In this document: positions 38,775-53,864 of the stretch, piece by piece
How positions within the stretch are numbered: position 1 is the first letter of the stretch
Layout of the letters: each line of letters opens with the position of its first letter
Source of the DNA: an uncultured Pseudohongiella sp.
GTDB lineage: Bacteria; Pseudomonadota; Gammaproteobacteria; Pseudomonadales; Pseudohongiellaceae
DNA length: 64,000 bases
Assembly (NCBI GenBank): GCA_951812965.1
Contig: OX638341.1
Span: forward strand, 3,020,438 to 3,084,437
Reading direction: 5' to 3'
Notes under the pieces: model-generated
Seen by the model: the letters and a program-made list of their open reading frames with translations, nothing else
Told to the model about the DNA's origin: nothing
Database searches by the model: none
Position numbers and translations under genes: made by a program

Positions 38775-38885
38775 GTCGTCGTCGGGCAGGGTATGTTTTG
38801 CGGGCGTGCGAGGCAGGAAGCCGAGCCCGAAGCCTACAGGGACGTATTTACGGCGTCCGCAAAACATACCCTGCCCGACGACGAC
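38775..38885. repeat. Long-hairpin element, complete copy 1 (29-bp arms, 53-nt loop)
   Basis: The arms at 38775-38803 (GTCGTCGTCGGGC...GCGG) and 38857-38885 are perfect reverse complements over 29 bp. The 53-nt loop (38804-38856, beginning GCGTGCGAGGCAGGA and containing CTACAGGGACGTATTTACGG) matches the loop of the copy at 53.8 kb at 47 of 53 positions. GGATCGA abuts the right arm, as it does in the other copy. Confidence 0.9.
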
Positions 38886-38929
38886 GGATCGATGCCACCA
38901 AACTTCATGACGGAGAAAACCAGAAGAAT

Positions 38930-40027
38930 CTACGCATTCCGGGTACTTCGAAAACTTTGAATATACGATTCCAGTTCGCCTTGTTCGATGGCTTGGCGTA
39001 ATTGGGCCATCAGTTGTTGGTAGTAGTGGAGATTGTGCACTGTGTTTAGTTGGGAGCCGAGGATTTCTCCGCATTTGTCCAGATGATGCAGGTAGGCGCG
39101 GGTGAAATTGCGGCAGGTGTAGCAGCCGCAGGTTTCGTCTATGGGCGCGGTATCGTCGCGGTAGCGGCTGTTGCGGATGCGCAGTACGCCTGTGGCGGTG
39201 AATAGATGGCCGTTGCGGGCGTTGCGCGTGGGCATCACGCAATCGAACATGTCGATGCCCTCGTATACGGCCTCGACGATGTCCTCCGGCGTGCCGACGC
39301 CCATCAGGTATCGTGGACGGTCTGAGGGCATCAGCCCGGCGCAATGGTGCACCATGGCAGACATTTCTTCTTTAGGTTCGCCTACGGACAAGCCGCCGAT
39401 GGCGTAACCAGGAAAATCGAGTTCGAGCAGGCCTTGCAGCGAGCGTTCGCGCAATTGCGGATACATGCCGCCCTGGATGATGCCGAATAGTGCGGCGTGG
39501 TGTTGGCCGTGAGCCGCGTGGCAGCGCGCCGCCCAGCGCAGGGAAAGCTCCATTGACTCCCGCGCCTGTTCTTCGGTGGCCGGATACGCCGTGCAATCGT
39601 CGAACACCATGATCACGTCGGCGCCGAGTTGCTGTTGCAGGGCGATAGCCGATTCGGGGCCGAGGAAGATCTTGTCGCCGTCGACGGGTGAGCGGAATTC
39701 GACGCCTTCTTCGCTGATCTTGCGCGAGGCGCCGAGGCTGAAGACCTGAAAGCCGCCGGAATCGGTCAGAACAGGCCGGCTCCAGCCCATGAATCCGTGC
39801 AGGCCGCCATGGGAGCGGACTACTTCCGCGCCGGGGCGCAACATCAGGTGAAAACTGTTGGCAAGGATCATGTCCGCGCCTATATCTTCGAGTTGGCGTG
39901 GATTCAGGCCTTTGACGGTGCCATAGGTGCCGACGGGCATGAAGGCGGGCGTGCGGACCTCGCCGCGGGTGAATTGCATCACCCCCGCTCGCGCCTTACC
40001 GTCGATATTGCGCAGTTCGAATTCCAT
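38930..40027 (-). CDS. tgt: tRNA-guanine transglycosylase
   Basis: A 365-residue enzyme that exchanges guanine-34 for preQ1 in GUN-anticodon tRNAs during queuosine synthesis. The start [15 protein letters not shown] aligns with the known E. coli start, so the ATG at 40027 was chosen over a GTG at 40057 that overlaps prf[16 protein letters not shown], the catalytic DSGGFQVFS and [15 protein letters not shown] are present. The zinc site is CGCYTCRNF plus the histidine in YLHHL. The usual upstream partner queA is absent; prfC ends 19 bp upstream instead. Confidence 0.97.
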
Positions 40028-40046
40028 GCCGGATTCTTTGTCTGGT

Positions 40047-41627
40047 TCAGTGTTCACGGGTTTCCCTGAAGTCGACGGAGGGCCATTTCTCCATCGCCAG
40101 TTTCAGGTTTACCTTGCTCGGCGCCAGATAGGTCAGGTAGCCGCCGGCGTCGAGCGCAAGGTTGTCATGGTACTTCTGGCGGAAAATTTCAAGCTCTTTC
40201 GCATCGCCGCAATCGACCCAGCGGGCGAGTTGCACCGTCACCGGCTCATAGCCGCAATCTACGCCGTACTCTTCCCTGAGCCGATGCGTAACGACTTCGA
40301 ATTGCAGGGCGCCGATGGCGCCGATCAGCAGATCGTTGTTGCGCAGCGGCATGAAGACCTGCACCGAACCTTCCTCGGCCAGTTGCGTGACGCCTTTCTG
40401 CAATTGCTTCCATTTCAGCGGGTCGCGCAGTTGTATACGCCGAAACAGTTCCGGCGCGAAATTCGGAATGCCGCGGAATCTCAACTCCTCGCCGCTGCTG
40501 AAAGTATCCCCGACCTGGATCGTGCCATGATTGTGTAGCCCGATGATGTCTCCGGAAACCGCCGCTTCCGCCAGTTCCCGCTCACCGGCGAGAAAAGTGA
40601 CGGCATCGCTTACCCGCGTAGTCTTGCCGGTGCGGCAGTGACGTATTTTCATGCCCTTGCTGAATTCTCCGGAGCAGATGCGCAGAAAGGCGATGCGGTC
40701 GCGATGTTTCGGGTCCATGTTGGCCTGGATCTTGAAAACGAAGCCGCAGAAATCTTCCTCCAGGGCTGATACTTCACGACTTTCCGCTGCGCGGCCACGG
40801 GGCTGGGGCGCCGCTTCGACAAAATCGTCGAGCAATTCGCGAACGCCGAAGTTCGCCAGCGCGGCGCCGAAATACACCGGGGTCAATGCGCCGGCGAGAT
40901 AGGCTTCGCGATCGAACTTTTCACTGGCGCCGCGCACAAGTTCGATTTCCTCGCAGGCCTGCTCGTACCAGTTGCCCAGTAATTGCCGCGCCTGCTCGCC
41001 GTGCAGGCCATCGATGCATTCTCCACCCACCGCCTGCCCCTTCAGCGCGCCCGGATAGGGATGCAGCGTATCGGTCGCCAGATGGTACAGGCCCTTGAAT
41101 TCCCTGCCCATGCCCAGCGGCCAGTTGATCGGCGCGCAGCGGATGCCGAGCACGCTTTCGATTTCGTCGAGAAGTTCCACCGGGTCACGGATGTCGCGGT
41201 CGAGTTTGTTGACGAAGGTGAACAGCGGGGTGTCGCGCATCCGGCAGACGTTCATCAGCTTGATGGTGCGTTCTTCCACGCCCTTGGCGCCGTCGACCAC
41301 CATCAGCGCCGAATCCACGGCGGTCAGCACGCGATAGGTGTCTTCGGAAAAATCCTCATGGCCTGGTGTGTCGAGCAGATTGACGATGCGTTCTTTCCAG
41401 GGAAACTGCATGACCGAAGAGGTAACCGAGATTCCTCTTTCCTGCTCCATGCTCATCCAGTCGGAGGCGGCCATCCGGCCGGATTTGCGCCCCTTGACGG
41501 TCCCCGCGGTCTGGATGCGGCCGCCGAGCAGGAGAAGTTTTTCGGTCATGGTGGTCTTGCCGGCATCCGGATGCGAAATAATCGCCAGGACCCGCCGCCG
41601 CTCGATTTTGTCGCGCAAGGATTCCAT
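40047..41627 (-). CDS. prfC: Peptide chain release factor 3
   Basis: A 526-residue translational GTPase that recycles RF1/RF2 from the ribosome. G1 is [10 protein letters not shown]3 is DTPGH and G4 is [26 protein letters not shown] marks the RF3 switch region (given to 20 residues). The start at [12 protein letters not shown] matches the family. A longer frame to 41810 reads through REP sequence and was rejected. It precedes tgt by 19 bp on the same strand and is divergent from the acyl-CoA dehydrogenase. Confidence 0.96.
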
Positions 41628-52262: not shown

Positions 52263-52264
52263 GA

Positions 52265-53704
52265 TCAGCCCATCACCACCCAGGTATCCTTGCTGCCGCC
52301 TCCCTGGGAGGAATTGACGATGTAGCTGCCTTCCACCAGCGCCACCCGGGTCAGGCCACCGGGAGTTACATAGCTGTCGGCGGCCTGCAAGATGAACGGC
52401 CGCAGATCGACGTGCCTCGGCTCGGCCGCGCGATTGCCGAGAATCGGCACCGTGGAAAGCGATATCAGCGGCTGACCGAGATAATTGCGCGGATTGTCCT
52501 TGATACGGCGGGCGAACTCCTCGCGTTCGGACGCGCTGGCCTGGGGGCCCATCAACATGCCATAGCCGCCCGATTCGTTCGCAGGCTTGACGACAAGCTT
52601 GTCGAGATTGGCAAGCACGTGCTGTCTTTCCTTGTCATTGAAACAGCGATAACTCGGCACATTGGGCAGAATCGGATCCTCATCGAGATAATACTTGATG
52701 AAATCCGGCACATAGGTATAGACGACCTTGTCGTCCGCCACGCCCGCCCCCGGCGCGTTGGCCAGCGATACATTGCCCTTGACCCAGGCCTGGAACAGGC
52801 CCGGCACGCCGAGCATCGATTCGGAGTTGAACACCGCAGGGTCGAGGAACATATCGTCGATACGCCGATAGATCACATCCACCTGGGACAGGCCGCCAAT
52901 GTTGCGCATGTAGACGCGGTCGTTCTCTACCACGAGGTCACTGCCTTCGACGAGTTCGGCGCCCATGCGCTGGGCCAGATAGGAATGTTCAAAATAGGCG
53001 GAGTTGTAAATTCCGGGCGTCAGCACCACAACCTCGGGAAAGGCCTGGCGTCGCGGCGAAAGCGAGGCCAGCATGTCGAACAGTTCCTGCGGATACTCGG
53101 TCACCGGCTGAATATCGTAGTTTTCGAACAATTCGGGAAACACGCGCTTGATGACGCGGCGGTTCTCCAGCATGTAGGACACGCCCGACGGCACTCGCAA
53201 GTTGTCTTCGAGCACCATGAACCGGCCTTGTTCGTCGCGAATCAGGTCGGTGCCGCAGATATGCGCCCAGACGTTGTAGCGCGGCTTGATACCGAGGCAC
53301 TGGGGCCGGAAATTGACCGAATCGAGGATCAGTTCCGGGTCGATGATCTTGTCCTTGAATACTTTCTGATCGTTGTAGACGTCGTGAATGAAACAGTTGA
53401 GCGCCCGCACGCGCTGATCGAGGCCGCGCCGGGTGACCTCCCATTCCGGGGCCGGAATAACCCGCGGAATCAGATCGAAGGGCCATTCCCGGTCGATATT
53501 CTCGCCGTCGCTGTAGACCGTAAAGGAAATCCCCATGGTCTTGATTGCGAGTTGAGCGGCAAGTTTCTTTTCGTCGAGATCTTTCCTGTCGAGGGACTCC
53601 AGATAGGCGGCAAGCCGCTGCGCCGTCGGCCGTGGCGCACCCGGCCGTTCGATCATTTCATCGTGAAAATCACCGGGGTTGTATGATTGCCAATCTATCT
53701 GCAA
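52265..53704 (-). CDS. Circularly permuted type 2 ATP-grasp protein
   Basis: A 479-residue protein with the conserved SYNPGDFHDEM start region, GISFTVYSDGENIDREWPFD (phosphate loop) and RVIPAPEWEVTRRGLDQRVR. GGYGMLMGPQASASEREEF lies toward the C-terminus. The start was set at a TTG at 53704 because GAGGGAG lies 6 bases upstream. The longer frame runs into the hairpin element at 53.8 kb. The family is inferred to form peptide or amide bonds with the alpha-E partner, which starts 2 bp downstream. Confidence 0.9.
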   Translation of the reverse strand: MQIDWQSYNPGDFHDEMIERPGAPRPTAQRLAAYLESLDRKDLDEKKLAAQLAIKTMGISFTVYSDGENIDREWPFDLIPRVIPAPEWEVTRRGLDQRVRALNCFIHDVYNDQKVFKDKIIDPELILDSVNFRPQCLGIKPRYNVWAHICGTDLIRDEQGRFMVLEDNLRVPSGVSYMLENRRVIKRVFPELFENYDIQPVTEYPQELFDMLASLSPRRQAFPEVVVLTPGIYNSAYFEHSYLAQRMGAELVEGSDLVVENDRVYMRNIGGLSQVDVIYRRIDDMFLDPAVFNSESMLGVPGLFQAWVKGNVSLANAPGAGVADDKVVYTYVPDFIKYYLDEDPILPNVPSYRCFNDKERQHVLANLDKLVVKPANESGGYGMLMGPQASASEREEFARRIKDNPRNYLGQPLISLSTVPILGNRAAEPRHVDLRPFILQAADSYVTPGGLTRVALVEGSYIVNSSQGGGSKDTWVVMG

Positions 53705-53753
53705 AGGAAGCTCCCTCAATTCGTACCAGCCGAAACGCTGGTGACTTCGATCC

Positions 53754-53864
53754 GTCGCCGTCTGGGGGCCAGTCTGCAGCGGACGCTGTGAATACATCCC
53801 TGTACGCTTCGAGCTCGGCATCCTGCCTCGCACGCCCGCTGCAGACTGGCCCCCAGACGGCGAC
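53754..53864. repeat. Long-hairpin element, complete copy 2 (29-bp arms, 53-nt loop)
   Basis: The arms at 53754-53782 (GTCGCCGTCTGGGGGCC...GCGG) and 53836-53864 are perfect complements over 29 bp. The loop 53783-53835, read on the minus strand, matches that of 38804-38856 at 47 of 53 positions, whereas the arms match at only 17 of 29. TCGATCC abuts the left arm, the mirror of GGATCGA in copy 1. It lies 49 bp before the ATP-grasp start. Confidence 0.92.

Follow-up and report, generated by a model that had tools for sequence, protein, structure and literature searches.

Introduction

How a hairpin stem remains paired while its sequence changes is a long-standing question, and it is raised directly by two hairpins in a stretch of 64,000 nucleotides (the window) of contig OX638341.1, from an uncultured Pseudohongiella sp. 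of the Gammaproteobacteria. Both hairpins, hereafter copy 1 and copy 2, are 111 nt long and consist of exact arms of 29 bp enclosing a loop of 53 nt; they agree at 47/53 positions in the loops and at 17/29 in the arms, figures of the initial annotation of this DNA that were all reproduced. That annotation proposed a hairpin family whose two arms are rewritten in a coordinated manner, by template switching or through a mobile single-stranded intermediate, rather than by ordinary point mutation. The copies belong to a dispersed, intergenic and palindromic repeat of the REP (repetitive extragenic palindrome)/BIME (bacterial interspersed mosaic element) kind, in the wide sense. Two of its features were not found described: a conserved loop with two GGA motifs, carried on stems that are private to each copy and change in both arms together, and a spread over the class. 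Our favoured reading, to which we give a probability of about 0.5, is that a Csr/Rsm-type RNA module is carried on stems maintained by arm-to-arm copying.

A Dispersed Hairpin Family With Private Stems

Among 200 dinucleotide shuffles of each window copy, none folded as well as the natural RNA sequence (z of -10.9 for copy 1 and -11.6 for copy 2). On the window, a covariance model of the conserved core matched copy 1 (E 3e-21; this copy is one of the sequences behind the model) and copy 2 (E 5e-20), the next-ranked match having an E of 0.035. The family proposed from this pair is real: a BLAST search of the own genome, a single contig of 3.43 Mb, returned 58 pieces at E<=10, which group into 39 places separated by more than 300 bp (33 of them matched at E<=0.001), and many more copies occur in relatives. 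Matches at E<=0.001 were present in 12/38 genomes, the own one included, and were many in G000, G018, G021 and G022. With up to two mismatches, the outer end GGCGACGGATCGAAGCCAC was counted 34, 19, 98 and 96 times, respectively, in these four genomes, and 10, 14, 105 and 0 times in G043, G046, G050 and G051; the same pattern read backwards, used as a control, gave no matches except one in G050. The relatives with copies are metagenome-assembled Gammaproteobacteria, many of them labelled Pseudomonadales, together with an uncultured Pseudohongiella chromosome; 5/53 stretches, from actinobacteria or a Dehalococcoidia, were left out. Farther away, the core model found matches in 73/194 genomes and 42/96 genera of the order (E<=0.01, with up to 29 candidates scored per genome) and in 33/143 genomes of the class (E<=1e-4).

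Every copy follows the same design, a conserved core of ~52 nt on a long, mostly well-paired stem (~21-35 bp) whose sequence is largely copy-specific; one arm comprises ~9 conserved outer pairs and ~17 variable pairs. Among full copies, 105/111 are paired, 48 of these without any mismatch, and 92 mismatches were counted in 2,686 pairs. In a set of 150 elements gathered by their outer ends, mismatches per column amount to 3.8% in the variable zone and 6.2% in the outer stem, and the variable columns rank with the best paired ones: 0/147 mismatches are seen at position 10 (heterozygosity 0.46), and 31/147 at position 8 (heterozygosity 0.39). Imperfect, drifting arms, which the initial annotation held to be contrary to its proposal, do exist in part: the 17 variable columns are perfect in 105 of the 150 elements, although decayed and chimeric copies also occur (e.g., the chimeric L015 and L031). 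Such copies are under-represented here because elements were collected via a core match, or via an outer end with <=4 substitutions and >=18/26 paired. The ~96-105 ends of G021, G022 and G050 were fetched in part (52 elements used from G022, 26 from G021 and 2 from G050). Left out were three fold-back hits from two loci and the elements measuring 169 and 340 nt; in places, copies exceeding 3, 4 or 6 mismatches, same-locus pairs, and pairs with an element above 300 nt or of exactly 215 nt were also excluded.

Coupled Change of the Arms at Orthologous Loci

BLAST of the flanks gave 51 ortholog-like pairs of elements, including a few same-locus pairs; both flanks aligned in 29 pairs. In 23 non-redundant pairs, 67 columns had changed on both sides of the stem (two-sided), 26 were mismatched and 295 unchanged (388 aligned columns, 4 gaps aside). 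The ratio 67/388 was rejected as an estimate of turnover, being too generous, since replaced regions and independent insertions are included in it. As some intergenic regions proved replaced, or their insertions independent, a filter was applied that requires the near flanks to be aligned on both sides, and 13/29 pairs were kept. These 13 pairs, with a mean third-position divergence of 0.23, hold 221 variable columns, of which 21 are two-sided (9.5%), 21 mismatched and 179 unchanged.

This proportion was compared with two models. Under independent mutation and constant selection for pairing (a model without large-population effects), the two-sided fraction has a ceiling of 1.6-2.0% at a neutral distance of 0.35 and of 3.0-3.5% at 0.5, and the selection strengths that give a standing mismatch of 2-5% yield a two-sided fraction of about 0.5-2% only. 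Under arm-to-arm copying at 50 events per neutral substitution, the model gives 25% two-sided columns and 4% mismatches. The observed value lies between them; therefore unconstrained copying over-predicts coupled change and selection alone under-predicts it several-fold, and the copying model appears nearer to the data than the constant-selection one. The Poisson probability of 21/221 is 1e-8 at an expectation of 2% and 7e-6 at 3%, for columns that are not strictly independent. One locus, in addition, carries five different stems, each with a mismatch-free variable zone (L009, L306, L113, L183 and, by its right flank only, L215), although only the pair L306/L113 survives the near-flank filter. 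Altogether, we think it probable that the coupled change of the arms comes about through copying.

The time course adds a qualification. Stem differences are one-sided in the closest informative pairs, L074/L138 (right flank only), L091/L284 and L028/L160, whose flanks diverge by 4.4-5.2%, and also in L262/L277 at 7.1%; single mutations therefore come first. The coordinated rewriting of the arms by template switching put forward in the initial annotation is thus supported by the coupled orthologous change, which exceeds the constant-selection model, and by the in-place loop inversion described below; the annotation's dismissal of ordinary point mutation holds in part: the two-sided excess at orthologous loci speaks for it, and the one-sided mutations seen first in the closest pairs speak against it.

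Inversion of the Loop and Possible Replacement of Stems

Some stems differ considerably at little divergence, as in L215/L306 (5.5%) and L043/L074 (5.7%), both aligned on the right flank only, and in L317/L122 (7.2%), where conservation of the near left flank is lacking; these may be replacements. In L050/L143, the intergenic region was replaced between flanks that are ~95% identical. Nonetheless, other copies of the same genome are probably a lesser source of stems, with exceptions such as L017/L018. At equal sample sizes (G022, G021 and G000), the nearest arms within G000 lie at 4.26, compared with 4.22-4.43 for non-orthologous arms in other genomes; within G021 they lie at 3.46, compared with 3.38-3.47 elsewhere, whereas for G022 and SB0675 the arms of the own genome are slightly nearer than those of other genomes.

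A core was recognised in 130/150 elements, and in 4 of these it is inverted relative to the outer ends, one case being ambiguous. The clear example is L091 (G022) compared with L284 (G046), where the loops are identical at 59/59 positions after reverse complementation, the flanks are ~95% identical, and the arms are the same except for two one-sided changes. Template switching between inverted repeats of yeast genes has been described as homogenising arms and inverting spacers (PMC8604942). Both hallmarks of an inverted repeat maintained in this way, homogenised arms and spacer inversions, are present here, and switching would account for them.

The Core and Its GGA Loops

The core consists of a junction and two small hairpins (P2 and P3), whose stems covary and whose loops hold (C)A(N)GGA; in an alignment of 21 cores, 7 of 10 pairs have changed on both sides and none shows one-sided changes. 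In other genera, the same core sits on other stems. Loci of the order-wide search (29 other genomes and the own one) have an enclosing inverted repeat with a score >=12 in 21/30 cases, compared with 1/144 control positions. In five further genomes, 47/52 cores lie inside an inverted repeat that reaches this score and 47/52 loops measure 51-53 nt; in G129, 12/19 stems are perfect over 21-30 bp, and copies share 43% identity in the arms (inner-anchored) and 70% in the loops, whereas the arms of G091 are 76% identical between copies and therefore point to a younger expansion. In genomes of the same genus and of other families, 13/18 core hits (15 loci) reach an inverted-repeat score of 12, against a noisier control (five scores >=12, three of them at 60).

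In this clade, P3 reads UACANGGAYGUA on the core-forward strand, N and Y being its variable positions, and CANGGAYG accounts for 98/101 recognised P3 octamers (104 short elements). In other genera, CANGGANG occurs in 76/78 cores and A(N)GGA in P2 in 74/78, not all of them independent; the A(N)GGA of P2 is kept while its stem differs between genera, and the P2 loops of both window copies fit CAGGA(U/A/C)G. The specificity published for RsmA is CANGGAYG, and that of CsrA by systematic evolution of ligands by exponential enrichment (SELEX) is RUACARGGAUGU (PMC7705225); CAGGA(U/A/C)G, for its part, is reported as repeated in the loops of CsrB (PMC7652899). Because the loops on one strand match these published motifs, the core is read as a putative two-site Csr/Rsm-type RNA module, an assignment by sequence toward which the balance of evidence leans. 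A csrA gene is present in 27/29 genomes, with one in the own genome, which makes binding possible and nothing further.

Among the 131 elements with sufficient flank, the two neighbouring genes are co-directional with the core in 48, opposite to it in 19, convergent in 27 and divergent in 9; the other 28 elements are unplaced or inside an open reading frame (ORF). The excess of sense orientation in this clade (48 vs 19) has a p of 5e-4, a value obtained with orthologous copies included and with a home-made gene finder.

Features of the Window and Variants of the Repeat

The features of both copies are collected in Table 1. Copy 1 is flanked by yajC (37935-38261) and tgt (38930-40057), both on the minus strand and thus opposed to its core-forward strand; the neighbours of copy 2 are an aldo/keto reductase gene and an ATP-grasp gene, both co-directional with its core-forward strand.

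Table 1. Hairpin features located in the window (strand: the core-forward strand of each copy, plus for copy 1 and minus for copy 2).
Feature	Position	Strand	Basis
Copy 1, whole hairpin	38775..38885	+	Arms, fold z, model match
Copy 1, left arm, 29 nt	38775..38803	+	Arm comparison
Copy 1, right arm, exact reverse complement of left	38857..38885	+	Arm comparison
Copy 1, conserved 53-nt loop (core)	38804..38856	+	47/53 vs copy 2; present across order
Copy 1, inner hairpin P2, AGGAA loop	38812..38822	+	Sequence, fold, covarying stem
Copy 1, inner hairpin P3 (TACAGGGACGTA), contains CAGGGACG = CANGGAYG	38835..38846	+	Covarying stem, octamer counts
Copy 1, conserved outer right end (GGATCGATGCCAC)	38886..38898	+	End family counted across genomes
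Copy 2, whole hairpin	53754..53864	-	Arms, fold z, model match
Copy 2, conserved 53-nt loop (core)	53783..53835	-	Loop comparison
Copy 2, inner hairpin P3 (TACAGGGATGTA on minus strand), contains CAGGGATG	53793..53804	-	Sequence, fold
Copy 2, inner hairpin P2 (GGCAGGATGCC on minus strand)	53817..53827	-	Sequence, fold
Copy 2, conserved outer right end	53741..53753	-	End comparison
Third member, 268 nt, adjoins copy 1	38344..38611	-	Outer ends and core start as in the family; interior longer, different

The interior of the third member is made of other repeats, including a fragment of a GCAGAATCTC/GATTCTGCG-type dispersed repeat that is also found near other hairpin copies and in relatives. A solitary exact outer right end (GGCGACGGATCGAAGCCAC) lies at 41687-41705 on the minus strand, in the 5' part of a long release-factor-3 ORF and with no core nearby, which suggests that it is a remnant and that the true gene start is further downstream.

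Whole elements fall mostly into length classes of ~112, 186 and 230-240 nt. In the 186-nt class (L023, L025, L027, L028, L030 and L199), ~75 nt with extra hairpins interrupt the core after ACAGGG, and the P3 loop becomes AGGGG, without GGA. A second subtype (L003, L044, L052, L106, L119 and L124) has the same core inside other outer ends (GCCGTAGGCCG ... CGGCGAGATG). At L026, near 2425010 of the own genome, left halves (left arm and core start) form a tandem array whose arms differ from unit to unit; at L303 (G022), orthologous to L177, both outer ends are kept and almost the entire hairpin is gone, as after palindrome deletion. A diverged member at L351 (1764-1893), with two CATGGATG hairpins and an altered P3 stem, escaped the sequence pattern and was caught by the TwoAYGGAY model below its cut-off. 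One 58-nt core query had no match in plasmids or phages; among viral contigs, the single exact core match is in L406 (IMG/VR contig, around 6228-6254), where the surroundings of the core are similar to the consensus of Ysr224, a Yersinia small RNA (sRNA) family.

Weighing the Explanations

In the reading that we favour, the junction of two hairpins with (C)A(N)GGA loops would present two CsrA/RsmA-type sites on the same strand and would cap a stem that is mainly required to pair and, for this reason, would be free in sequence. A mutation would strike one arm, and copying from the other arm, through template switching or hairpin repair during replication, would then settle either the old or the new base; drifting stems would thus stay well paired and each copy would gain its own arms, the same process occasionally inverting the loop. 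Several observations weigh against this reading. Without selection, the copying model predicts too much two-sided change (25% vs 9.5%; 17% before filtering), 5/13 filtered pairs have no two-sided change at all, and the 21 mismatch columns are confined to 6 pairs, so that some copies evidently decay. Mismatches are more often wobble pairs than A-C (outer stem minus positions 7-8, 21 vs 2; positions 7-8, 43 vs 3; variable zone, 16 vs 8), as would be expected if a folded strand were under selection. A first count (53 vs 4) had been taken as proof of one-strand selection; its weight was lowered because 43 of the wobbles counted later come from positions 7-8 and the ratio in the variable zone is 16 vs 8. 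Arm-arm recombination could be an alternative source of the loop inversion. On the side of the RNA module, sense orientation was rejected as a general rule, other genera showing 5 vs 10 of 47, and the strand to which the reported sRNA Ysr224 aligns is not the one with the GGA loops, so either strand may be transcribed. The models of known CsrA-type RNAs, moreover, matched only below their cut-offs (TwoAYGGAY with 37.2 and 34.5 bits vs 43, at L351 1764-1893 and L367 1204-1321; RsmV with 19.3 bits vs 100, at L342), as did several unrelated microRNA hairpins. Our confidence in the joint reading was lowered because the copying model over-predicts and because Y1 genes are present in some core-rich genomes.

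Ordinary compensatory evolution, in which RNA pairing is selected, single mutations (often to G-U) are tolerated and a second mutation restores the pair, would dispense with copying between arms. The wobble bias of the outer stem, the one-sided differences of the closest pairs and the conservation of the core, which suggests function, agree with it, and so does the excess of transitions among two-sided changes of the filtered pairs (15 vs 6 transversions), an excess that copying and selection models allow alike. We nevertheless hold this explanation to be unlikely, as it gives at most 2-3.5% two-sided columns at any selection strength tried, and about 0.5-2% at strengths that fit the mismatches, vs the 9.5% observed, and it leaves the loop inversion unexplained. 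Less likely still is exchange between copies, whereby gene conversion or a new insertion would swap a whole hairpin and both arms at once. Orthologous loci at which loop classes differ and arms are kept (L199/L099, L316/L143), the identical arms of L017/L018, the chimeric L015 and L031 and the replaced region of L050/L143 point to such events; however, the nearest arms of G000 and G021 are no closer within the genome than to non-orthologous ones elsewhere, many filtered pairs differ at merely 1-6 of 17 columns, and exchange shuffles existing stems and creates no new ones.

We consider it very unlikely that the repeat is simply a DNA element of the REP type, mobilised by a Y1/RAYT transposase or through some other single-strand process, with the hairpin as substrate and the GGA loops as incidental. 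Its intergenic, palindromic and multi-copy nature would suit such an element, as would a GTRAG-like foot next to the stem, spotted by eye, and the co-occurrence of cores and Y1 genes in G027, G029 and G034, which counts against our reading. Apparent empty sites (L177/L182, L013/L329 and L320/L003) also speak for it. The Y1 transposase family PF01797, however, was not found in 12/38 genomes, including the high-copy G000, G018, G021 and G022, and two unrelated hairpins hold the same loop while stems change. Y1/RAYT transposition was thus rejected for this subfamily, although the argument is not general because the core-rich G027, G029 and G034 carry Y1 genes; with PF01797 missing from four high-copy relatives and many copies at orthologous loci, the mobile single-stranded intermediate of the initial annotation is not supported.

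Relation to Known Systems

At the gathering score, Rfam had no match in the window, either for TwoAYGGAY (RF01731) or for any other family such as Ysr224, and the repeat as a whole obtained weak matches only, the best being Ysr224 (RF02770) on the other strand, with 22.8-32.2 bits vs a cut-off of 70 at 11 loci (4/9 and 7/20 tried). Ysr224, reported to exist in multiple copies and to rank with the most abundant sRNAs of bacterial genomes (PMC9029176, PMC12112432), has a consensus of which a large part can be aligned to the core in reverse complement (L353, L367); unlike the present repeat, its modelled strand lacks the GGA loops, and a private long stem does not appear in the portions of its description consulted here. 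TwoAYGGAY RNA, a proposed CsrA binder (PMC4333381), and the Rsm/Csr sRNAs resemble the core in that one shared stem carries two hairpins whose loops are of the ANGGAY type, but they are single sRNA genes, whereas here dozens of dispersed copies have private stems.

REP/BIME/REPIN repeats are likewise palindromic, modular, intergenic and dispersed. In the published GTAG/CGTC REP families, stems measure 5-13 bp and loops 2-20 bp (PMC3733652); these dimensions are not those found here, where stems of ~21-35 bp differ by copy and enclose a conserved loop of 51-53 nt. Template switching at quasipalindromes, through which RNA hairpins have been proposed to arise and to be maintained (PMC8794818), shares arm homogenisation and spacer inversion with our case; here it would have acted over evolutionary time, across a repeat family and over loops of >=53 nt. 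Among open-licence papers, none was found tying these repeats to CsrA or describing private stems.

Biological Meaning

Single genomes with this repeat supply dozens of natural replicates with orthologues, so that coupled arm change becomes measurable against the divergence of the flanks. If the GGA loops bind CsrA/RsmA, a repeat common in the class would join a global regulatory network, in which it might exert a regulatory or sponge-like effect. It is possible, although doubtful, that many Gammaproteobacteria hold a distributed Csr/Rsm switchboard of tens to a hundred dispersed two-site CsrA/RsmA-binding hairpins, located in transcript tails and gaps. Were this so, the whole set of hairpins would buffer or localise a global regulator, and their private stems, continually recopied from arm to arm, would constitute a standing natural record of template-switch events.

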